Of a stretch of DNA of 35,204 nt, positions 3,216-35,204 are shown one piece after another. The position numbers and the translations under genes are program-made. This DNA comes from a virus, in the IMG/VR virus record IMGVR_UViG_3300025616_000024, positions 1 through 35,204 of that record; one strand, written 5' to 3'. Each line of letters starts with the position of its first letter. Positions within the stretch are counted from its first letter, which is position 1. The notes under the pieces were generated by a model. The model worked only from the letters and a program-made list of their open reading frames with translations. It did not search any database and was not told where the DNA came from.

Positions 3216-3244
3216 AATCCAAATCCTGCTATTCGGAGGTGTCC

Positions 3245-3523
3245 ATGCAGCAGCTACTCATCATCGGCGTCGCTTCTTTTGCCGCCTTGTTCCTCATCAT
3301 ATTCGGGGCCGTAACTAAAGACGGCGGAGTGCTGGCAACCGGCACGGGCATCCTTGGGGCGTTACTGGGTGCTGCGGGGGTCAAGTATCAACCCGCGATC
3401 CAGACGGCTCTCTGTAAAATGGGATTCCACAAGTGGGATGATGGCGTTAAAACCGGCATCTGGCTGTCTTCAAGGTGCAAACGGAAAGGATGCCCCTGCG
3501 CGAAGCAGAAGAGGATTGTATGA
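3245..3523 (+). CDS. Small membrane protein with a Cys/His (DUF1660-like) tail
   Basis: 92 residues. ATG 3245 is chosen because the in-frame GTG at 3239 lies inside the GGAGG ribosome binding site. Two hydrophobic segments (about 4-22 and 28-46) suggest a two-pass inner-membrane protein. The C-terminal part has C-x-M-G-x-H-K-W followed by CKRKGCPC, a Cys/His arrangement seen in small prophage zinc proteins. It precedes other membrane proteins and the holin candidate, so a lysis or superinfection role is possible. It overlaps the next gene by 4 nt (ATGA). Confidence 0.6.
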   Translation: MQQLLIIGVASFAALFLIIFGAVTKDGGVLATGTGILGALLGAAGVKYQPAIQTALCKMGFHKWDDGVKTGIWLSSRCKRKGCPCAKQKRIV

Positions 3524-3885
3524 TTCCTGCCCTGATTGTCGATATTCTTCTCCCCGTCCTCATCGCAATCATCGCTACGCACTACCCTCGTTTTTATGGC
3601 CACTACTGCCAGTCCCCTGAACCCTTCACACGCTGGTTCTCGCGCATCGCCGAGGCCTTCCCGTGGTTCTGGAAGCCGCTCCAAGGGTCCTTGATACTTT
3701 TTTCGGCCTTGACTGCTATCTTCGCGCCGTGGTATTGGGCGATAATCGGCGTTTACGGTCTACTCTTCGAAGGCTGGTTTGTTTGGCACATCGTCAGCTA
3801 CATCAACGAACACCAAATCGACAACCCCCCGATACAGTTCAAGGCGAGATTGCAATGGATAGGGAGATTGAATGTTTACCGATAA
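3520..3885 (+). CDS. Membrane protein of unknown function
   Basis: 121 residues from ATG 3520, which overlaps the preceding stop (ATGA) and follows GAGGA. Three hydrophobic stretches can be seen: about 5-20 (LIVDILLPVLIAIIA), 50-65 and 70-95 (APWYWAIIGVYGLLFEGWFVW). It is rich in Trp, Phe and Pro. It lies in the lysis-region membrane cluster; a holin, antiholin or accessory role cannot be separated by sequence. Confidence 0.55.
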   Translation: MIPALIVDILLPVLIAIIATHYPRFYGHYCQSPEPFTRWFSRIAEAFPWFWKPLQGSLILFSALTAIFAPWYWAIIGVYGLLFEGWFVWHIVSYINEHQIDNPPIQFKARLQWIGRLNVYR

Positions 3886-4165
3886 AATTATGGCCGTCTT
3901 GCACCCCGTAGGCCACGAACACAAAAGCTGGACCCTCGTTTGCCTGTATAACGAAGTCCCCAAGCGCAACATCGAGGCGTTGTACCGCTCGGTGCTTTCG
4001 ATGGATAGCTTTTCCCAGATGTCCGGGACCATCCCCGATATCGGCGAGATCGTGGACATGCCGATGATAGCGCTGGGCCCGACGACCATCATGCTTATCG
4101 GCCAAACATGGCTGGCGATTCTTGAAGCTTATGTGCCTGAAAATGGGGACTCCGATGTCTGCTAG
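3872..4165 (+). CDS. Hypothetical protein in the lysis cluster
   Basis: 97 residues beginning at ATG 3872 with AGGGAG just upstream, overlapping the end of the previous gene by 14 nt. The middle is hydrophobic (MPMIALGPTTIMLIGQTWLAILEAY) but contains too many polar residues for a confident membrane helix. No family recognised. Tight coupling to both neighbours supports a real gene. Confidence 0.5.
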   Translation: MFTDKIMAVLHPVGHEHKSWTLVCLYNEVPKRNIEALYRSVLSMDSFSQMSGTIPDIGEIVDMPMIALGPTTIMLIGQTWLAILEAYVPENGDSDVC

Positions 4166-4478
4166 ACTGACCAACCTCAGCGACCGCGACCTCCTGATAA
4201 TGAACACCGAGGACACCAAGAATCTCTTGGCATCCGTCAATCGCATCGACCAACACCTGCTAACCCTGAACGGCAAAGTCAACGACACCATGGTCAAACT
4301 CGCGAAGGCTGAGGAAATTGCAAAGACCGCCATTCTGAAAGCCGAAAAGGCTGAAGTATGTGACGGCGAAACCAACAAGCGTATCGACTCCTGGGTAAGG
4401 GGTACCATCGTGGCTTCTATCGGGGCGATCTCCGCAGTTGTCGCCGCATTATTCGCATTGGTTAAAGGGAAAGTCTAG
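4155..4478 (+). CDS. Holin-like protein (XhlA-type architecture)
   Basis: 107 residues from ATG 4155. Residues about 10-75 are a heptad-like charged helix predicted to coil. Residues about 84-104 (TIVASIGAISAVVAALFALV) form one membrane segment followed by a short Lys-rich end. A coiled coil plus C-terminal membrane helix is the layout of XhlA-type holin/lysis proteins. The gene sits immediately upstream of the protease in the lysin position. Earlier in-frame ATGs (4122, 4143) exist, but 4155 overlaps the previous stop in the usual way. Confidence 0.6.
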   Translation: MSARLTNLSDRDLLIMNTEDTKNLLASVNRIDQHLLTLNGKVNDTMVKLAKAEEIAKTAILKAEKAEVCDGETNKRIDSWVRGTIVASIGAISAVVAALFALVKGKV

Positions 4479-4489
4479 GAGGAATATCA

Positions 4490-5290
4490 ATGTATTCACC
4501 AACTTTCGGGCATCGTCTCGGCGCGTTAGCCAGCAGGCCGGGGCCTCAAGATCTGCTGATTACCAGCTTCCCGCGCACCGCCTCGAAACGGCCCAAGGCC
4601 TTTACCGAACGCGCGAAACACACGCCGGTCAAGAACCAGGGCAACGCGGGGACCTGTGAAGGTTTCGCCGGCGTCGCTACCCTCGAAGTCAAAGATGTGG
4701 GGGAGCAGACAGTCGGAGATTGCATCAACCTTTCCGAGATGTGGGCATATACCCAGGCCAAGAAGATTGACGGGTACCCCACGGAGGAAGGCACCGATTC
4801 GTACTCGATGTGCCAGGTCATGCTCAACACCGGTTTCTGCGAAGACCAGCTTGACCCTTATTCCGATGCGCACCCGATCGTTGACCGGGCATTACCGGGA
4901 GCCGCCGAGAATGCGGCCAAGTTCAAGATACAGCGCCATGCTTCGGTAACACCTGCAGGGCTCCGGGATGCCATCTGGCAGCGCGGTTCCCTCCTCCTCG
5001 CCATTAAAGTTTATTCGAATTTCGGAGATACCGGCTCCAACGGGCTCGTTCCTTCACCTAGGGGAAGAATCGAAGGTGGTCATGCACTCTGCCTTGTCGG
5101 TTATGAAGATGGCCGGTGCTGTAACGGCTGGTTCGAAATCAAGAACTCATGGGGGCCGTCCTTTGGCGACAAAGGCTATGTTCACATCTCTTATAAAGAC
5201 ATGGCGAAGATTTTCATGGACGCCCGCTCCATCGTAGACCTGACGCCGGCCACGCTAACCAAGCTTTGCGCCGCGCCAAGAGGCGTTTAA
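4490..5290 (+). CDS. Papain-like (C1A) cysteine protease, candidate lysis enzyme
   Basis: 266 residues with ATG 4490 preceded by AGGAGG. The complete papain active site is visible: Gln50 (oxyanion hole) and Cys56 in PVKNQGNAGTCEGFA, His198 in GGHALCLVGYED, and Asn219 in IKNSWGPSFGDKGYVHIS. The usual second Cys of the papain CGSCW motif is Ala53, so that disulphide is absent. There is no signal peptide and no long I29 propeptide, only about 45 residues before the catalytic core. It occupies the endolysin position behind a holin candidate, so it may digest envelope protein during lysis. Other possibilities are virion-associated penetration or intracellular proteolysis. The family call is secure; the role is inferred. 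Confidence 0.85.
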   Translation: MYSPTFGHRLGALASRPGPQDLLITSFPRTASKRPKAFTERAKHTPVKNQGNAGTCEGFAGVATLEVKDVGEQTVGDCINLSEMWAYTQAKKIDGYPTEEGTDSYSMCQVMLNTGFCEDQLDPYSDAHPIVDRALPGAAENAAKFKIQRHASVTPAGLRDAIWQRGSLLLAIKVYSNFGDTGSNGLVPSPRGRIEGGHALCLVGYEDGRCCNGWFEIKNSWGPSFGDKGYVHISYKDMAKIFMDARSIVDLTPATLTKLCAAPRGV

Positions 5291-5822
5291 AGTGAGCGAG
5301 TTCAGTCGTCTGCTCCGCTCTTCCCTCAACCATTCCAGGAAGGCCCGCGAGTATGCGGATGAGGCAAATGTGCTCGCCGCGGCTTCGATGGTAGCGGCTG
5401 CCCATTGCCACCGCATTGCTGTCGGTGTCAATGAGGCGGTTGCCGAAGCCGTGAAGCCCTTCGACCCTGTGGAAGCGGCCCGGCCTCACTTGGAACTTGC
5501 TCGGCTCAATGCTGACCTGGCGGAGGCATGGGCGAAGGATGCCGCAAGCTATTGCGAAAAGGCGAAAGCCTGTGCGCTGGAGAGGTGTGGGTGAGGTAAG
5601 CAACTGGTGAAAGTCTAATAGAATATTTCTTAAGAAATATAATCTGGGCCCGGGGGTAAACACTCCGGGCCCGGTTTTTGTTTGTTCTGAGAGATTTACA
5701 CATCTAACAGCCATCACGATTTCGGCGCCCTTCTGCCCGCATATCATCAGGACGCAGAGATCTCCGACAATAATCATGGCTCGGCACGGGCCGTTCTTTA
5801 TTGATTCGAATATGACAGTCAT
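5214..5822 (-). CDS. Doubtful reading frame downstream of integrase
   Basis: ATG 5822 lies 1 nt after the integrase stop. The first 46 residues (to about 5685) have a plausible protein composition (RAMIIVGDLCVLMICGQKG). Beyond that the frame runs through the plus-strand terminator hairpin and antisense to two real genes, where the composition turns Arg/Pro-rich and looks like a shadow. If anything is expressed it is probably only the first part, possibly the remains of a small gene co-transcribed with the integrase. Confidence 0.2.
   Translation of the reverse strand: MTVIFESIKNGPCRAMIIVGDLCVLMICGQKGAEIVMAVRCVNLSEQTKTGPGVFTPGPRLYFLRNILLDFHQLLTSPTPLQRTGFRLFAIACGILRPCLRQVSIEPSKFQVRPGRFHRVEGLHGFGNRLIDTDSNAVAMGSRYHRSRGEHICLIRILAGLPGMVEGRAEQTTELAHFKRLLARRKAWLAWPASGLRWSGRP
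5292..5594 (+). CDS. Helical hypothetical protein after the protease
   Basis: 100 residues starting at GTG 5292, one base after the protease stop. It is Ala-rich and almost entirely alpha-helical by composition, with a few Cys and His residues (AAHCHR, YCEKAKAC). No family recognised. It is the last gene before the terminator, so it is transcribed with the lysis genes; a partner or inhibitor of the protease would fit but there is no direct evidence. Confidence 0.55.
   Translation: MSEFSRLLRSSLNHSRKAREYADEANVLAAASMVAAAHCHRIAVGVNEAVAEAVKPFDPVEAARPHLELARLNADLAEAWAKDAASYCEKAKACALERCG
5623..5640. repeat. 18-bp perfect palindrome ATATTTCTTAAGAAATAT
   Basis: A perfect 18-bp dyad lies between the last lysis gene and the terminator, and about 180 bp from the 3' end of the integrase gene. 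It is AT-rich in a GC-rich neighbourhood. It could be an operator or protein-binding site. It is not followed by a T-run and is separate from the terminator stem 6 nt downstream. Confidence 0.5.
5646..5685 (+). terminator. Intrinsic terminator of the tail-fibre/lysis operon
   Basis: GGGCCCGG (5646-5653) pairs with CCGGGCCC (5665-5672) across an 11-nt loop and is followed by GGTTTTTGTTTG. It sits where plus-strand transcription ends before the convergent integrase operon. On the opposite strand no T-run follows, so it should act mainly on plus-strand transcripts. Confidence 0.85.
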
Positions 5823-5823
5823 A

Positions 5824-6780
5824 TTATTCCAAATTGTCTACAGGGCTGAATTGCACGTGGGCTTTCATCGCGTCATCCGATCCTATGTCACTCATGTAGG
5901 CGCGAGTCATAGTTAGCGTGGAGTGTCCCAGGATAACCTGAACATCGAACTCACGCGCTCCGTTCCTGAATGAATTGATAGCGAATGTATGCCGGACTGT
6001 GTGGGGTCCTATCTTGACGCCGGTAACACCCGCCCGTCTGAACAAGCGCCGTATCATTATCTGCACGCCGTCCCGGTGCAGCTGCGTCTTCTCCTCGGTG
6101 AGCCACAAGCACGGCAATTCGTATTCCTGTGATAGCAGCCACCACCTCATTAACGCCATGTGCGTCACCTTGCCCATCCTGACGCGTCTTTCTTTTGCAC
6201 CCTTGCCCATGATAGAGATTGTTCCCTGCTTGATGTCCACCTGGGCCCGGTTGATGTGACTCAGTTCGTCGAGTCTCAACCCGGTATCCAGGAACATCAG
6301 GAAGATGGCTTTATTGCGGATCCCCAGGAAAGAGTTGTCGCACAGGCTCAGGATATTTTTTATATGAAGCGAAGTCAGCGGTTTGTGAATTGTTTTAGGA
6401 ATCTTCGGCGGCTTCATATTGGCCATCGGGTTATCGGTGATGATGCCCTCTCTTAGAAGAAAGGATGAAAAACTGTGCAGGACTCGATAATACCTGGAAC
6501 AAGTTTCCGCGCATATGCCCCTGTTTTGGAGCGCGAGCTGGAACTGTCGTATCTGTAAAGGATTGAATGCCGTGGCAGTCCGGGCGAACTCTCGAAGCGG
6601 ATATCCATAGGCCAGAAGCGTGGCGGGGCTCTTCCCCTCCACCTTGCAGGTCATAAGGTAGTAGTCTACCAGGTTGCCAATAGACTCTGTTTGGCTCGTG
6701 CCTTTAGAAAAAAGACTATGTTCTAGGGCAGGCACGCGCTGTGCCTGAGGAAAGTGACTAAGACTATGTTCTAGGGTCAT
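5824..6780 (-). CDS. int: Tyrosine site-specific integrase
   Basis: 318 residues, XerC/D-like size. The N-terminal SAM-like core-binding domain spans about 32-115 and the catalytic domain about 135-310. All catalytic residues are present: Arg169 (TGLRLDEL), Lys193/Lys196 (MGKGAKER), His260 and Arg263 (PHTVRHTF), His286 (LGHSTLTMTRAY) and nucleophile Tyr295. It should integrate and excise the phage at the tRNA-Ile site whose 3' half is at 6817-6858, only 37 bp upstream of the start. No Shine-Dalgarno sequence precedes ATG 6780, suggesting weak or leaderless translation. The first 28 residues contain a duplicated LEHSL segment caused by a direct DNA repeat. Confidence 0.95.
   Translation of the reverse strand: MTLEHSLSHFPQAQRVPALEHSLFSKGTSQTESIGNLVDYYLMTCKVEGKSPATLLAYGYPLREFARTATAFNPLQIRQFQLALQNRGICAETCSRYYRVLHSFSSFLLREGIITDNPMANMKPPKIPKTIHKPLTSLHIKNILSLCDNSFLGIRNKAIFLMFLDTGLRLDELSHINRAQVDIKQGTISIMGKGAKERRVRMGKVTHMALMRWWLLSQEYELPCLWLTEEKTQLHRDGVQIMIRRLFRRAGVTGVKIGPHTVRHTFAINSFRNGAREFDVQVILGHSTLTMTRAYMSDIGSDDAMKAHVQFSPVDNLE
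6712..6776. repeat. Direct repeat pair in the integrase 5' end, arm-site candidate
   Basis: AAGACTATGTTCTAGGG occurs at 6712-6728 and again at 6760-6776, 48 bp apart, within the first codons of int and about 40-105 bp from the attP core. Paired short direct repeats beside an attP core are what arm-type integrase or excisionase binding sites look like. The 48-bp spacing keeps the frame, so a simple 16-codon duplication is an alternative. Confidence 0.5.
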
Positions 6781-6816: not shown

Positions 6817-6858
6817 TGGGCGATTGAAGATTCGAACTTCAGACCCCAGTCTTATCAG
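6817..6858 (-). other. attP: attP core: 3' half of a tRNA-Ile(GAT) gene
   Basis: Read on the minus strand this is exactly tRNA positions 32-73: anticodon loop CTGATAA (6858-6852, anticodon GAT), 3' anticodon stem GACTG, variable loop GGGTC, T-stem TGAAG, T-loop TTCGAAT, T-stem CTTCA (perfect 5-bp pairing), acceptor ATCGCCC and discriminator A (6817). The 5' half of a tRNA is absent: the upstream bases do not pair with GACTG. Lone 3' tRNA halves starting in the anticodon loop are characteristic of attP cores of tyrosine integrases, and the integrase gene begins 37 bp away. The lack of CCA after the discriminator suggests the host gene does not encode CCA, or that identity ends there. Confidence 0.8.
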
Positions 6859-9473: not shown

Positions 9474-10622
9474 ATGCCAATAAAAAATTTATCCAACGTC
9501 CGCCAGATGCCTCGACTCGGCAAGGTAAGGACCGGCGTCAAGGTTCCCAACAAGTCAGGTCAGGGCGAACACCCCGAGGCGGTTGAATGGTTTGTGTTGC
9601 CCCCCGAAATCGCCAGCGCCTTCGGTGAAAAGCCGAAATCTCTCCCTATCATGTTCCCGGTTGAAGATGATACGAAATTCGCCAGCCAGTATTACAAGTG
9701 TTATTCCTCTTTCCGCGGTTTGACGTGTAAAGGCGATGGCGAAGTTTGCTCCCGGCTCATCGACACAAAGACCGGCGACTTCGCGCACCGCGACACAACC
9801 GACACGGACCGCCGCGAACTTCCCTGCAACGGGCGCGACTGCCCGATGTATCAGCAGAAGAAATGCAAAGAGGTAATGAACTTGCAGTTCCTTTTGCCTT
9901 CTGTCCCGGGCCTTGGGGTCTGGCAGCTCGACACCGGCTCATACCATTCGATTGTGGCCGTCAACAGCGCCATCGAGCTGATACGCTCGGTTGCCGGAAG
10001 AATTGCGATGATTCCCCTGACTCTTACCATCGAGCCGCGCGAAGTATCAATCAAAACAGACAAGGGGCAGGTCAAGAAAACTGTCAGCACCTTGCAGATA
10101 CGGACCGACATTACCCTTGCCGAGATACAACGGCTCGGAGCGATGCCGGCGAGCCAGGTCATGCTCCCGCCGCCAGATGAGGAGAAGCCGGACATGCTTT
10201 TCTCAGAGGATGAAGGCGAAGAGGCCAAACCCTCCACCAAGGAACCTATCTCTGAAAAGGAAATAGCCGAGATGTGGGACGGCAAGAAGAACACGCCCAC
10301 TCCCGCCGCCAAGCCAGCCGAGAAGCAGCCTGTCGCTCAATCAGCCGAGCAAACCACCAAGCCGGTAGAAGTTACCGAAACGAAACAGGCCGACACGGGT
10401 TTAGCGGGGTACGTTGACACGGCATGGCTCAACGAGTCGCTCGCAGCCCTGAAATGGAAACTTCCTACTTTCCTGTCTTTCTTCGAGGGCAACCGGGCGA
10501 AGCTCGGGCTCACCACCGAGAAAATCACCGGGAAGACGGCCGCGGAAGCTGTCTCGAAGCTCAACCAGGAGCAGGCCAAGAAATTCACCGACTGCATCAA
10601 CGACATGCTGAGGCTGAAATAG
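9474..10622 (+). CDS. Gp3/RDF-like zinc-binding DNA-metabolism protein
   Basis: 382 residues, ATG 9474 after GGGAGA. A Cys cluster at about 75-132 (GLTCKGDGEVC, then LPCNGRDCPMYQQKKC) could bind one zinc or an Fe-S centre. It is followed by LQFLLPSVPGLGVWQLDTGS and a beta-rich stretch to about 220, a combination I associate with the phage Gp3-like 'recombination directionality factor' family. The region about 230-310 is acidic, Pro/Lys-rich and disordered; the last 70 residues look helical. The host enzyme here is a tyrosine integrase, so a directionality role is uncertain, and ssDNA or recombination functions are equally possible. Confidence 0.45.
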   Translation: MPIKNLSNVRQMPRLGKVRTGVKVPNKSGQGEHPEAVEWFVLPPEIASAFGEKPKSLPIMFPVEDDTKFASQYYKCYSSFRGLTCKGDGEVCSRLIDTKTGDFAHRDTTDTDRRELPCNGRDCPMYQQKKCKEVMNLQFLLPSVPGLGVWQLDTGSYHSIVAVNSAIELIRSVAGRIAMIPLTLTIEPREVSIKTDKGQVKKTVSTLQIRTDITLAEIQRLGAMPASQVMLPPPDEEKPDMLFSEDEGEEAKPSTKEPISEKEIAEMWDGKKNTPTPAAKPAEKQPVAQSAEQTTKPVEVTETKQADTGLAGYVDTAWLNESLAALKWKLPTFLSFFEGNRAKLGLTTEKITGKTAAEAVSKLNQEQAKKFTDCINDMLRLK

Positions 10623-17641: not shown

Positions 17642-18289
17642 ATGATACTTAAAACCATCCCTCTTTCAAAGATTAACCCGGCGGCCTACAACCCGCGTAA
17701 AGACCTCCAGCCATCCGACCCGGAGTACAAGAAACTCAAGAAGTCGCTGACCGAGTTTGACTGCGTGGAACCTCTGGTTTGGAACGAGACCACCGGCAAC
17801 CTCGTGGGCGGGCACCAGCGGCTTAAAGTTCTGAAGGACCTGGGCCGGACCGAGGTTGAGGTATCGGTGGTGGATCTGGATGATGCCAAAGAGAAGGCGC
17901 TCAATCTGGCGCTGAACAAGATCAGCGGCGAGTGGGACCTGCCCCGGCTGAAGGACTTGCTCGAGGAGATAAATACCGGCGCCTTTGATATCGAGGTCAC
18001 GGGTTTCGATGATAAAGAAATCGAAGAGCTGATGACGCAGTTTCACGTGCCATGCGAAGGTCTGACAGACGATGACGCTATCCCTGAGAACGTAGAGACA
18101 ATTTGCAAGACGGGAGACCTGTGGCAACTCGGAACTCATAGGCTATTGTGCGGGGATGCTTTAATTATCACAGACCTTGAGAAGCTCATGGGCGGAGCGA
18201 AAGCCCAACTTGTCTGGACTGACTGCGACGTAATCATAAAACGCTGGGAAGATTTTACAGGTAAAAAGGCAGTTAAACTCGATGTCTGA
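17642..18289 (+). CDS. ParB-domain protein, remnant of a ParB-DNA methyltransferase fusion
   Basis: 215 residues. Residues 1-90 are a ParB/Srx-like nuclease domain (LSKINPAAYNPRKDL, then LVGGHQRLKVL), and 95-135 the usual helical connector. KTGDLWQLGTHRLLCGDA (156-173) is the start of the N6-adenine methyltransferase found fused to this domain in phages. After AQLVWTD (188-194), where the catalytic [DN]PPY should follow, the sequence jumps to CDVIIKRWEDFTGKKAVKL, which resembles the normal C-terminus of the same fusion. The catalytic domain is therefore deleted in frame. It lies just upstream of the terminase genes, the usual place for this protein. Confidence 0.75.
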   Translation: MILKTIPLSKINPAAYNPRKDLQPSDPEYKKLKKSLTEFDCVEPLVWNETTGNLVGGHQRLKVLKDLGRTEVEVSVVDLDDAKEKALNLALNKISGEWDLPRLKDLLEEINTGAFDIEVTGFDDKEIEELMTQFHVPCEGLTDDDAIPENVETICKTGDLWQLGTHRLLCGDALIITDLEKLMGGAKAQLVWTDCDVIIKRWEDFTGKKAVKLDV

Positions 18290-18662
18290 CAATGCTGTAA
18301 AACAGCGAATCATAGGAAAACCCTTCCCAAAGGGCAAAACGGGCAACCCCCACGGGCGCCCGCCCAAGATTCACTGCGTCACATCGCTCCTGGCCGAACT
18401 GCTTAACGGCGATCCAGAGAAGGTCAAGGCGAAATGGGTCAAGGGCAAACCGACCGGGGCCATGATCGTCGCGCTCGCCATGTTCGCCAAGATGGGCCGG
18501 GGAGACTTAACGGCTATTAAAGAGGGGTTAGATCGTGTCGAGGGCAAGGTAAAGGACACGGCTGATATAACCACCAACGGGCAGTCCTTAAATACGACGA
18601 CGATAAACGTGGTAAGCCAGGAAGCGAAAGCCATAACGGAAGCTCTTTGTAATGGTGAATAG
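18282..18662 (+). CDS. Terminase small subunit-like protein (DUF5681-type)
   Basis: 126 residues, ATG 18282 overlapping the previous gene by 8 nt and ending in overlap with the large subunit. IGKPFPKGKTGNPHGRPPK (11-29) is the DUF5681 signature found in phage proteins next to terminases. The remainder is helical with a Thr/Asn-rich C-terminal linker. It probably recognises phage DNA for packaging; position is the main functional evidence. Confidence 0.65.
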   Translation: MSDNAVKQRIIGKPFPKGKTGNPHGRPPKIHCVTSLLAELLNGDPEKVKAKWVKGKPTGAMIVALAMFAKMGRGDLTAIKEGLDRVEGKVKDTADITTNGQSLNTTTINVVSQEAKAITEALCNGE

Positions 18663-19855
18663 TGAAGCTCGACACAACCTCGATATATGTGCAGAACGGG
18701 GCTGCATGGCTGGCCCGTAACTCTGGAATCAGGCGCCGCGCCTTAAACGAAGGCGGCACATCATCCTCAAAGACGTACTCAATCCTTCAAGTCTTAATTT
18801 TAATCGCCCGTAGTGCCACTACACCGACTCTTGTATCGGTTGTAAGCGAGTCCCTGCCCCATTTGAGAAGGGGCGCGATGAGAGACTTCTTTGCGATTAT
18901 GGGTGAATCGCCATCTAACAATCCCCGGTACAACATGAGCGAACACGTCTACGACTTCGGCAACGGGAAGATAGAGTTCTTTTCAGCCGATGAGCCTTCC
19001 AAGATGAGGGGCGGTAGGCGTGATGTTCTCTTTATCAACGAAGCTAATAACGTCGGCTATGACGCTTTTAAAGAACTAGACATACGAACCAAGCTATTCA
19101 CGTTCCTGGACTGGAACCCTGTAAGCGAGTTCTGGGCGCATGAACAACTCTTAAACAAACCCGAAAACAAGTACATCCACTCGACCTATCTGGACGCTAT
19201 GAACGTCCTTCCGCCGGAGGTGGTTAGGAACATCGAGTCAAACAAAGACTCCGACCCAAACTGGTGGAACGTCTACGGGCTAGGAAAACTCGGCAGGGTT
19301 GAGGGGCTCGTCTATCCTGTGTTTGAAATCGTGGACGCCCTTCCGGAACATGGCCAGGTCGCATACGGCCTTGACTTTGGTTTTGCCGGCGACGAGGCGG
19401 CGCTTGTAAAGAACGTTATCATCCCTGCACACGACAAAGAACTCGGCCAGGTCTTTTCTCAAGAAATAATCTACGCCAAGAACCTCACGAATCAAGATCT
19501 GTCCTTGAAGATGGAACAGGCCGGGGTTAAAAAACATTACGACGAGATCTTTGCAGATTCTGCTGAACCGAAGTCGATCGAAGAACTTCACCGGCTCGGC
19601 TGGAACATCAAACCATGCATCAAGGGCGAAGGATCCGTAGAGTTTGGGCATCAAAAACTTCGTCAGTATAAACAATTCTGGACGAAAGACTCGTTAAACG
19701 GCATCAAAGAACAACGCAACTTCCGCTACATCGCTGACAAAGACGGCAAGTTGACAGAGAAAACGGCGCATAACTGGTCACACATCATGGACGCGAGAAG
19801 GTACGGAGTTCTCGGAAAAGTGGGCGGCGTCCAAATCGGTATCTTTTATGCGTAA
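18662..19855 (+). CDS. terL: Terminase large subunit
   Basis: 397 residues starting at GTG 18662, which overlaps the previous stop. The ATPase domain has a Walker A-like LNEGGTSSSKTYSI (28-41) and Walker B DVLFINEANNV (about 120-130) with Glu next to the hydrophobic strand. The nuclease domain shows YGLDFGFAGDEAAL, IFADSAEPKSIEEL and a final NWSHIMDARRYGVL, the three acidic clusters of the RNase H-like fold. Pattern matches PBSX/Terminase_3-type enzymes. It packages DNA into the prohead through the portal encoded next. Confidence 0.93.
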   Translation: MKLDTTSIYVQNGAAWLARNSGIRRRALNEGGTSSSKTYSILQVLILIARSATTPTLVSVVSESLPHLRRGAMRDFFAIMGESPSNNPRYNMSEHVYDFGNGKIEFFSADEPSKMRGGRRDVLFINEANNVGYDAFKELDIRTKLFTFLDWNPVSEFWAHEQLLNKPENKYIHSTYLDAMNVLPPEVVRNIESNKDSDPNWWNVYGLGKLGRVEGLVYPVFEIVDALPEHGQVAYGLDFGFAGDEAALVKNVIIPAHDKELGQVFSQEIIYAKNLTNQDLSLKMEQAGVKKHYDEIFADSAEPKSIEELHRLGWNIKPCIKGEGSVEFGHQKLRQYKQFWTKDSLNGIKEQRNFRYIADKDGKLTEKTAHNWSHIMDARRYGVLGKVGGVQIGIFYA

Positions 19856-30695: not shown

Positions 30696-32297
30696 ATGGC
30701 TGAGTACACAACTGCTGTCCGGGTAGCTTTTGGTAATAACGCCTTTGGTGCCTCTCCGACATGGGTGGACATCTCAACTGACAATAAGGGCTTCACCACC
30801 CATCGTGGACGTACTTATGAGATGGGCAGGATGGAGGCGGGTACTGCTTCGATTGTCTTAAACAACACATCGGGAAACTATTGGAAAAACAACGCTGCGG
30901 GATCTCATTATCCGAATGTTATCCCCATGAAGCCGGTCAATATTCAAGTCTCCGTTAGCTGTTTGAACCTTTTAACTAATACCAGTTTTGAAACAGGAGA
31001 CCCACCGACAGGGTGGACGCTTACAGGTGCGGGCGCATCATGGACTCGCAGTTCCGATTATGCTCACGCTGGTACGTATTCGGGTAAATTGGTGCGAAAC
31101 GGAGCAGATTGTGTCGCATACCAGCCAGTTACTTATGCGCCTTATCTAGGGAAAACAGTAACTTTTGGTGCATGGGTTTGGTGTGCCACCCCTAATATCG
31201 CATTTATACAGGTATATGATGGCGTGGGTGTATCATATTCCTCCTACCATCCAGGTGACTCAGCATGGCACTACCTATCTATAATCAAAGTCATAAGTTT
31301 GTCAGCCAACCAGTTGACACCTGAATTGTATATCAACACCAGCAACGGAACCGCGTATTTCGATGATGTTTCTTTACTTTTAAATTACGATATCTTTACA
31401 GGATTCTCCGAGGCTTGGACACCAGGATTTGTAGCACCTCCGATTAAAATCCCTCAAGTAACACTTTCCTGTGTTGACCTTGTTAAAAGCCTTTCAAGAG
31501 ACATAATAAACAATGCCGGTTATGCCTCGGAATTAAGCGGTACACGGGTAGGCCATGTTCTTGACGATTTAAGTTGGCCTGCCGGAGCGCGAACACTCGC
31601 TGCCGGGGTTTCAACATTACAGGCTACGGGGAGCCTATCTACCAATCACCTAAATGCTCAGTCTCATTTACTGGCTGTTCAGGACACCGAGCAGGGGATT
31701 ATATTCTGCGGTGTAGACGGCAAGGTAGTGTTCCACGATAGGCATACTCGGCTAGGTTCGCCTTATAACACTTCTCAATATACCTTTACAGACACAACCA
31801 ACGGGCACTATGCCGGGATAGTCCCAACTAACGACGACCAGTATATCTATAACGACGTACATATCACCCGTTCAGGCGGTACGGAGCAGATCGCCCAGGA
31901 CTCAACCAGCATCACGGCTTACGGGTTGAGGTCTTTAGCGATTACGGGGCTTTTAACCACCAGCGACGGCGAGTCTTTAAGCGAAGCCCAATACCTTGTC
32001 GGCAAGTACGCTCAACCTGCACAACGGGTAAAGCAACTTGTAATCAAACCCTCAAGCGACCCGACAAACCTCTGGCCGATTGTTCTGGGTCTGGATATCT
32101 CCTCGCGGATTACAGTCGTCTTAACCCAGGCATCAATCAACGAAGATTACTACATCGAAGGGATAACCCACACCTACAAACCCGGACAGCCGTGGGTAAC
32201 AACTTACGACCTCTCCCCCGCAGCTAGCCAGGCTTACTGGTCTCTAGGTGATACGGGGTTCTCGGAACTTGGAGACACAACCATCCTTTCGTATTAG
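30696..32297 (+). CDS. Baseplate hub / distal tail protein with inserted carbohydrate-binding-like domain
   Basis: 533 residues, ATG 30696 one nt after the tape measure. The N-terminal part (about 1-85) resembles phage tail proteins with RGRTYEMGRMEAGTASIVLNNTSGNYWKNN and continues at about 232 (DIFTGFSEAWTPGF) through the C-terminus. Between these (about 90-228) lies a CBM4/9-like beta-sandwich: LLTNTSFETGDPPTGWTLTG, SDYAHAGTYSGKL and GTAYFDDVSLL. The insert may bind host surface sugars. Its codon use is slightly more AT-rich than that of the flanks. Confidence 0.75.
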   Translation: MAEYTTAVRVAFGNNAFGASPTWVDISTDNKGFTTHRGRTYEMGRMEAGTASIVLNNTSGNYWKNNAAGSHYPNVIPMKPVNIQVSVSCLNLLTNTSFETGDPPTGWTLTGAGASWTRSSDYAHAGTYSGKLVRNGADCVAYQPVTYAPYLGKTVTFGAWVWCATPNIAFIQVYDGVGVSYSSYHPGDSAWHYLSIIKVISLSANQLTPELYINTSNGTAYFDDVSLLLNYDIFTGFSEAWTPGFVAPPIKIPQVTLSCVDLVKSLSRDIINNAGYASELSGTRVGHVLDDLSWPAGARTLAAGVSTLQATGSLSTNHLNAQSHLLAVQDTEQGIIFCGVDGKVVFHDRHTRLGSPYNTSQYTFTDTTNGHYAGIVPTNDDQYIYNDVHITRSGGTEQIAQDSTSITAYGLRSLAITGLLTTSDGESLSEAQYLVGKYAQPAQRVKQLVIKPSSDPTNLWPIVLGLDISSRITVVLTQASINEDYYIEGITHTYKPGQPWVTTYDLSPAASQAYWSLGDTGFSELGDTTILSY

Positions 32298-34397: not shown

Positions 34398-35108
34398 ATG
34401 GCTATCGCCTATGACGCGGCAGTAGGAACCACGGGCACAACCACGCCCACGACTGGCAGCTTGAACCATGCTGCTCTTGTGGCCGTGATTATCAATATCA
34501 CGTACATAGGCACAACCTCCCCCAACGCTGTGACCGTGGGGGGTACAGCCGCAACCTATGTCACAGGCAGCAAGGTCAGTTATAGCACGAACAACTCAAC
34601 AGAGGCGTGGGTCATTTTCCGCGTAGCGTCTGGGAATGAAACCGTGTCTGTCGGGTTTGCCGCGGGCACCCGTGTCGCTTGGAACGCTGTGAGCTACACT
34701 GGATGTTCAATCGTTTATGAAAATATAACGACAAACAACGGGTCAGGCGCGTCACCCCTTACCTCAACGGTTACAGCGGGCGCGGGCACGACTGGGCGTA
34801 TGCTTATATGCGGGACGGGCGTGGCTCAAAGTGCGAACGCTAGTGGCTCCATCACAATGACGTGCAACCGTACACAACAGGATAGTACGCGCGCCCTTGC
34901 TGGTTCATCATCTTTGAAGGCTAACAGCGCGGCTATTCAAGAGTACAGTGACAATTCTGGATCAGCGGCCACGACCACAACGGACACGAAATCAAGTGCG
35001 ACCCTTAACTGGGCGACTTGGGTGCTGGGGCTAAAACTCTCGTTTATTGCATACAAGGACGCGGGCACTCGTTTCAAGTTGTATGGGCAGGGATATGCTG
35101 ATGTATAA
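34398..35108 (+). CDS. Tail fibre/receptor-binding protein, version 1 (complete)
   Basis: 236 residues, ATG 34398 after AGGGG. The N-terminal beta domain (1-215) ends in LNWATWVLGLK; only one KDAGTRFKLYGQG repeat plus a truncated unit (YADV) follows, against five in the version at 2-793. Residues 30-72 are encoded by DNA identical to positions 1-127, then the two versions diverge. The stop overlaps the start of the following fibre gene by 8 nt, exactly as at 786-793. Confidence 0.7.
   Translation: MAIAYDAAVGTTGTTTPTTGSLNHAALVAVIINITYIGTTSPNAVTVGGTAATYVTGSKVSYSTNNSTEAWVIFRVASGNETVSVGFAAGTRVAWNAVSYTGCSIVYENITTNNGSGASPLTSTVTAGAGTTGRMLICGTGVAQSANASGSITMTCNRTQQDSTRALAGSSSLKANSAAIQEYSDNSGSAATTTTDTKSSATLNWATWVLGLKLSFIAYKDAGTRFKLYGQGYADV
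34484..34610. repeat. 127-bp exact copy of window positions 1-127
   Basis: Positions 1-127 equal 34484-34610 base for base, and base 128 differs from 34611. The match covers fibre codons for residues 30-72. An exact 127-bp match at a contig edge is also the size of a common assembler k-mer, so it may mark an assembly-graph branch at a variable locus. Confidence 0.95.
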
Positions 35109-35204
35109 CTATTCACCCCCCATAGTCACCAAACCGTCTGCTGGACGAGTGGATATAACAAGCCCCACGGGCGGGCACGTTACGTCCGTGATTGTCGGGC
35201 CTAA
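35099..35204. repeat. 106-bp exact copy of window positions 784-889
   Basis: The last 106 bases equal 784-889 and cover the fibre stop plus the first 34 codons of the large repeat protein. Identity starts sharply: base 35098 differs from 783. Together with the 127-bp copy it brackets a diverged 488-nt (version 1) or 656-nt (version 2) stretch. Confidence 0.95.
35101..35204 (+). CDS. Start of the large repeat fibre gene (partial, runs off the window)
   Basis: ATG 35101 begins the same protein as ATG 786; 34 codons are present and the DNA is identical to 786-889. If the window is circular, the frame continues across the end into position 1 in phase with the gene at 2-793. Confidence 0.75.
   Translation, partial: MYNYSPPIVTKPSAGRVDITSPTGGHVTSVIVGP

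Follow-up and report, generated by a model that had tools for sequence, protein, structure and literature searches.

A papain-type protease encoded beside a holin-like gene as the probable lysin of a phage of murein-less Dehalococcoidia

A papain-family cysteine protease encoded just behind a holin-like gene probably serves a temperate, siphovirus-like phage as its lysin, cutting the protein envelope of a murein-less Dehalococcoidia host after the holin has opened the way to it. The gene lies in the window, the 35,204-nucleotide stretch of viral DNA analyzed here (IMG/VR record IMGVR_UViG_3300025616_000024), and features relevant to the argument are collected in Table 1. A protease in the lysin position suggests that the phage bursts its host by cutting protein rather than peptidoglycan. 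Late in infection, the holin, a protein with a coiled coil and a transmembrane (TM) segment, would open the cytoplasmic membrane; through this lesion the soluble, signal-less protease would reach and cut the protein envelope, its target there most likely being the S-layer, and the cell would burst. Export through the holin, the envelope substrate (probably the S-layer) and lysis itself are the steps that we infer. An initial annotation of this DNA had suggested a proteolytic lysis enzyme suited to a host with an S-layer or protein coat, such as murein-less Dehalococcoidia; the host and the anatomy of the cassette are borne out below, with the lysis role and the S-layer target standing as predictions.

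Table 1. Features of the window, with strand and the evidence behind each assignment
Feature	Position	Strand	Evidence
Small hydrophobic protein, perhaps a second membrane protein of lysis	3239..3523	+	sequence
Small membrane protein	3475..3885	+	sequence
97-aa cassette ORF	3872..4165	+	Pfam and PHROGs scans
Holin-like protein, coiled coil then C-terminal TM	4122..4478	+	phrog_689 holin, 1.7e-5
Papain-family (C1) cysteine protease, proposed lysin	4490..5290	+	Pfam PF00112, phrog_16701, PDB C1 chains, catalytic residues
100-aa Ala-rich ORF, same operon, 3' of protease, translationally close	5292..5594	+	sequence, Pfam, PHROGs
Intrinsic terminator at the end of the cassette, 12-pair stem and T run	5644..5674	+	
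Tyrosine integrase	5824..6780	-	Pfam PF00589, 5e-26
42-nt attP core from the 3' half of tRNA-Ile(GAT)	6817..6858	-	exact attB match in 3 Dehalococcoidia genomes
Gp3-like (PF18897, RDF-like) protein	9474..10622	+	82% and 74% to two G157 prophage pieces, 62% to G057 prophage
Terminase large subunit (TerL), used for collecting relatives	18662..19855	+	
Tail protein, 44-48% common to Dehalococcoidia prophages, used for lysin comparison	30696..32297	+	

By sequence, the product of the protease gene is a genuine member of peptidase family C1, and proteolytic activity is predicted for it. The ORF encodes 266 amino acids from an ATG start, with a Shine-Dalgarno-like AGGAGGA directly upstream. It matches PF00112 (Peptidase_C1) with an E-value of 2.3e-16 and 61 bits, against a curated Pfam cut-off of 20.7 bits, and the PHROGs family phrog_16701, labeled peptidase, at 3.9e-18. 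Family C1 chains in PDB are matched by the sequence itself, starting at 1e-10, and xylellain (3ois) is reached at 3e-37 when a profile of seven phage sequences of the window protease alignment is used. The papain catalytic residues that had been read from the translation as intact, Gln50, Cys56, His198 and Asn219, are invariant in those seven sequences, as is Trp221. The predicted structure is of low confidence (pLDDT 45), and its best match is still 3ois. Only C1 models are matched in Pfam and PHROGs, with no match to family C71 and no tail or binding domain; inspection of the sequence revealed neither a hydrophobic N-terminal signal peptide nor a TM segment. When the window protease was used as a single sequence to scan viral contigs by pattern, no relatives were returned; these were recovered only with a three-sequence alignment as the query.

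The protease gene does follow a holin candidate, as the initial annotation had it: the stop codon of the holin-like ORF, whose start is likely an internal ATG (MSARLTN), lies 11 bases upstream of the protease gene. An enzyme gene beside a holin gene in a late cassette is the arrangement that characterizes holin-endolysin systems. Of the small membrane proteins encoded further upstream, the first has no significant family in PHROGs and the second none in Pfam or PHROGs. The gene had also been described as ending in a terminator; the terminator is real, closing the cassette, and the Ala-rich 100-aa ORF intervenes, so that the order downstream of the protease is 100-aa ORF, terminator and an integrase gene of opposed orientation.

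The enzyme of a holin-endolysin system degrades murein, and on sequence grounds the window offers no domain for this. An HMM scan of its annotated and plausible ORFs with Pfam, reaching E-values of 0.01 to 1, found no amidase, lysozyme, transglycosylase or murein endopeptidase, in agreement with what had been reported from motifs, and Pfam finds no lysozyme or endopeptidase domain in the tape-measure and tail genes. Proteins that Pfam does recognize include portal, terminase, S78 prohead protease, capsid, integrase, repressor and the Gp3-like protein. The two ends of the window, 1-889 and 34484-35204, are 86-89% identical, and the difference in their lengths, 168 nt, is exactly four units of the 42-nt repeat (14 aa, KDxATRFxLxV) that forms an array in ORF 783-2882. 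That the ends are diverged copies of each other suggests an essentially complete circular map; the window probably covers all or nearly all of a circular genome of about 34.4 kb, and the absence of other lysins gains weight accordingly. The paired ends themselves probably arose as overlap when sequences of two strains were assembled into one circular map, or else by tandem duplication, and ORF 783-2882 probably encodes an adhesin-like repeat protein of variable length.

That the phage is a temperate, siphovirus-like phage of murein-less Dehalococcoidia is strongly supported, since the attachment site, related prophages and missing murein genes all point there. When up to three mismatches were allowed, the attP core was found in three of 393 Dehalococcoidia-class genomes (G313, G157 and G053), each time as an exact 42/42-nt match, with no copies at one to three mismatches in the set. 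ARAGORN calls a tRNA-Ile(GAT) at the match in G313 and G157, and identity between these genomes and the window ends exactly at the borders of the core, as expected for attP against attB; the match in G053 lacks the 5' half of the tRNA and adjoins an integrase homolog. Host assignment by the tRNA-Ile attB, which the initial annotation had suggested as a check, points to Dehalococcoidia, and related prophages accompany it. In addition to the Gp3-like protein, prophage pieces in G157 share a repressor with the window at 56% identity. G057, a single contig of 1,521,287 bp, carries a complete prophage that is partly collinear with the window, with 61% identity in TerL and 44% in the main tail gene and with the shared genes mostly in matching order. 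Terminase similarity was rejected as a host marker, being too promiscuous: TerL relatives occur in many phyla, and G008, with a TerL 64% identical, carries a GH24 lysozyme. The window TerL is 60-67% identical to that of phages in which portal, capsid and lysis genes either are very divergent or have no relation to those of the window; it is thus passed between phages as a module and says little about the host in this group. Prophage activation in Dehalococcoides was reportedly described by Waller in 2012.

Host genomes were searched for the genes of murein synthesis. HMMs for MraY (TIGR00445), MurG (TIGR01133) and the penicillin-binding protein (PBP) transpeptidase (PF00905) found none of the three in G057, G041, G042 or G175. 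In G157, the one attB genome tested, tblastn over 1.83 of 1.91 Mb (95.5%) with the murein genes of the Dehalococcoidia genome G163 as queries found no PBP, mraY, murG, murC or murD-like gene; host control genes matched strongly. Host genomes that are MAGs are incomplete, and these absences are to be read accordingly. G163 itself encodes MraY, MurG and PBPs. The absences agree with the published loss of peptidoglycan genes, placed at the ancestor of Dehalococcoidia orders 10-25, with Dehalococcoides and Dehalogenimonas reported to lack peptidoglycan (PMC10284905). An S-layer protein is among the most abundant proteins of these bacteria (PMC5102406).

Related phages carry comparable cassettes. 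In the G057 prophage, the genes downstream of the tail genes encode a 71-aa TM protein, a 181-aa protein, an 84-aa holin-like protein belonging to the same PHROG as the window holin (phrog_689, 1.6e-4) and a 133-aa protein of the Agglutinin_C family (5e-6). Searched against PDB, a profile of this last family finds the papain-fold protease domains of MOA and PSL (3phz, 2iho) at about 1e-8, and no murein hydrolase appears among the best 25 of the 34 Pfam families for this prophage. MOA-type proteases with small TM neighbors are also found in G015, G007 and G022, and C1 papains beside small TM proteins in G029, G038, L150, L154 and L160; in G038 and the three L contigs the papain pair lies directly before the terminase genes, not after the tail genes. 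The TM protein that accompanies the C1 protease in L154 and L150 is homologous to the one that accompanies the MOA-type protease in G007 (43%, 1e-12). A small TM neighbor occurs at nine of eleven such proteases, a count that was not blind, two cases having come from reading holin neighborhoods, against a base rate of 7.6% of genes; with close relatives merged, the figure is six of seven (p ~1e-6). In other relatives the coiled-coil/TM proteins resemble holins in anatomy only, most of them unrecognized by PHROGs. In the G163 prophage, which has a homologous tail, the genes downstream of the tail genes encode an Amidase_2 protein (1.1e-16) and then two small TM proteins, and the viral contig L196 (tail 45%) also encodes an Amidase_2. 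Lysin type therefore appears, in these few cases, to follow the presence of murein. The broader proposal, that phages of murein-less Dehalococcoidia replaced murein endolysins by interchangeable papain-fold proteases (C1, MOA-type and possibly others) that work with holins, are aimed at the S-layer and came in as the host lost murein, we hold to be about evenly balanced between right and wrong.

Several other roles for the protease can be weighed against lysis. It might act inside the cell, in maturation of phage proteins, disabling of host proteins or anti-phage defense, and lie beside the holin by chance. The lack of a signal peptide would suit such a role, and the phage has an S78 prohead protease of its own, so that a separate cytoplasmic task would be left to this one. 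Papain-family genes are found outside lysis cassettes in Streptomyces phage Sycamore, where the gene lies among tRNA genes, and in Xanthomonas phage XacN1, which indicates that C1 proteases have other roles in phages. Chance placement, however, does not readily explain why the pairing with small TM proteins recurs across divergent relatives, or why one TM family accompanies two unrelated protease families, and we judge an intracellular role unlikely. We consider it unlikely, too, that the protease acts in the virion or at entry, opening the S-layer at infection and leaving lysis to the holin alone. The S-layer is a barrier to entry too, and for a cell without murein an opened membrane may be enough for lysis; in G017 and G023 a holin-like protein is encoded with no recognizable protease adjacent, which suggests that a murein-less host may need no lysin. 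Yet the protease gene lies outside the tail module, its product lacks any tail or binding domain, and its place behind a holin-like gene corresponds to that of an amidase in the murein-making relative.

An ordinary endolysin, in which a papain fold cuts murein peptides of a host that has murein, would have precedent in CHAP and NlpC/P60, which are papain-fold domains and common murein peptidases, and in phages of the same terminase family that carry ordinary lysins, as G008 does with its lysozyme. The protease, however, belongs to C1 and not to CHAP or NlpC/P60, and attB and prophages point to Dehalococcoidia, where G157 shows no murein genes; this reading is highly unlikely. Least probable of all is a spanin-like disruptor acting on the lipoproteins or glycoproteins that join the membrane to the envelope instead of on the S-layer lattice: the genetic anatomy expected would be identical, but the protease has no spanin-like features and no TM segment. 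Proteolytic lysis by way of the holin is the reading we prefer.

Viewed beside known systems, the window protease shares with family C1 its PF00112 match and its Gln/Cys/His/Asn set, with xylellain as the nearest solved structure, and differs in being phage-encoded beside a holin, with no recognizable inhibitor propeptide or signal peptide. PeiW and PeiP, of family C71, are cysteine peptidase lysins from viruses of methanogens, hosts without murein (PMC4592898, PMC2989375). The likeness lies in the use of a cysteine peptidase on a murein-less host, the lysin role being a proposed one for the window protease; the difference is that C71 enzymes cut a pseudomurein isopeptide, whereas the C1 enzyme here would probably cut an envelope protein. 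Classical holin-endolysin cassettes resemble this one in coming late, behind the tail genes, and in combining a small holin-like protein with a soluble enzyme and a terminator, but here the enzyme is a protease and the phage has no amidase, lysozyme or murein endopeptidase. The MOA/Agglutinin_C protein (PF18021) of the G057 prophage is likewise a papain-fold cysteine protease beside a holin of the same PHROG, although it belongs to another sequence family and its catalytic set looks like Cys-His-Glu. Neither papain nor Chloroflexota is mentioned in a recent survey of viral lytic proteins (PMC12596118). No description of a papain-type phage lysin for S-layer hosts was found in the literature searched, and we read the arrangement as new: a holin-endolysin-type pair whose enzyme is a papain-type protease, a variant of that system.

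The proposal bears on the question of how phages lyse bacteria without peptidoglycan. If the proposed reading is true, phages of Dehalococcoidia provide a natural experiment, in a class that lost murein once, with amidases on one side of the loss and proteases on the other. It would also offer a genetic entry point to the lysis of organohalide-respiring bacteria, supply candidate enzymes for breaking down the resistant S-layer of these cells, and reveal a lysin class overlooked by murein-based annotation.

Some candidates were set aside. C1 matches in Dehalococcoidia genomes were not used as a set; the one neighborhood examined (L172 in G069) was not recognizably phage. A prophage in G157 (L238 14676-19710, contig C22) is arranged like the window: behind the tail genes come two small TM proteins, then a 257-aa protein and an opposed integrase. 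The 257-aa protein contains the papain-like motifs NDELGDC, GGH and TWGKE; as a papain-like lysin it had no Pfam, PDB or profile support and was left out of the evidence. The 181-aa protein of the G057 cassette was considered as a permuted, YiiX-like NlpC/P60 protein, with no significant fold or sequence match (model pLDDT 49).

Other proteins were observed in similar settings. A conserved cassette protein of 173-181 aa (L140 16756-17298, L185 550-1068), with invariant His53 and Cys143 and no Pfam, PHROG or PDB match, adjoins the holin-like gene or lies one gene away. A phage MOA-type protease in G022 (L104 15046-15897) has a signal peptide and a weak dockerin-like domain and lies near integrase and clpB genes. 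Soluble signal-peptidase-like proteins with a TNSMD motif, identified by eye near small TM proteins in L190 (18605-19357) and L095 (~17800-19100), are another possible protease in a lysis-like setting.
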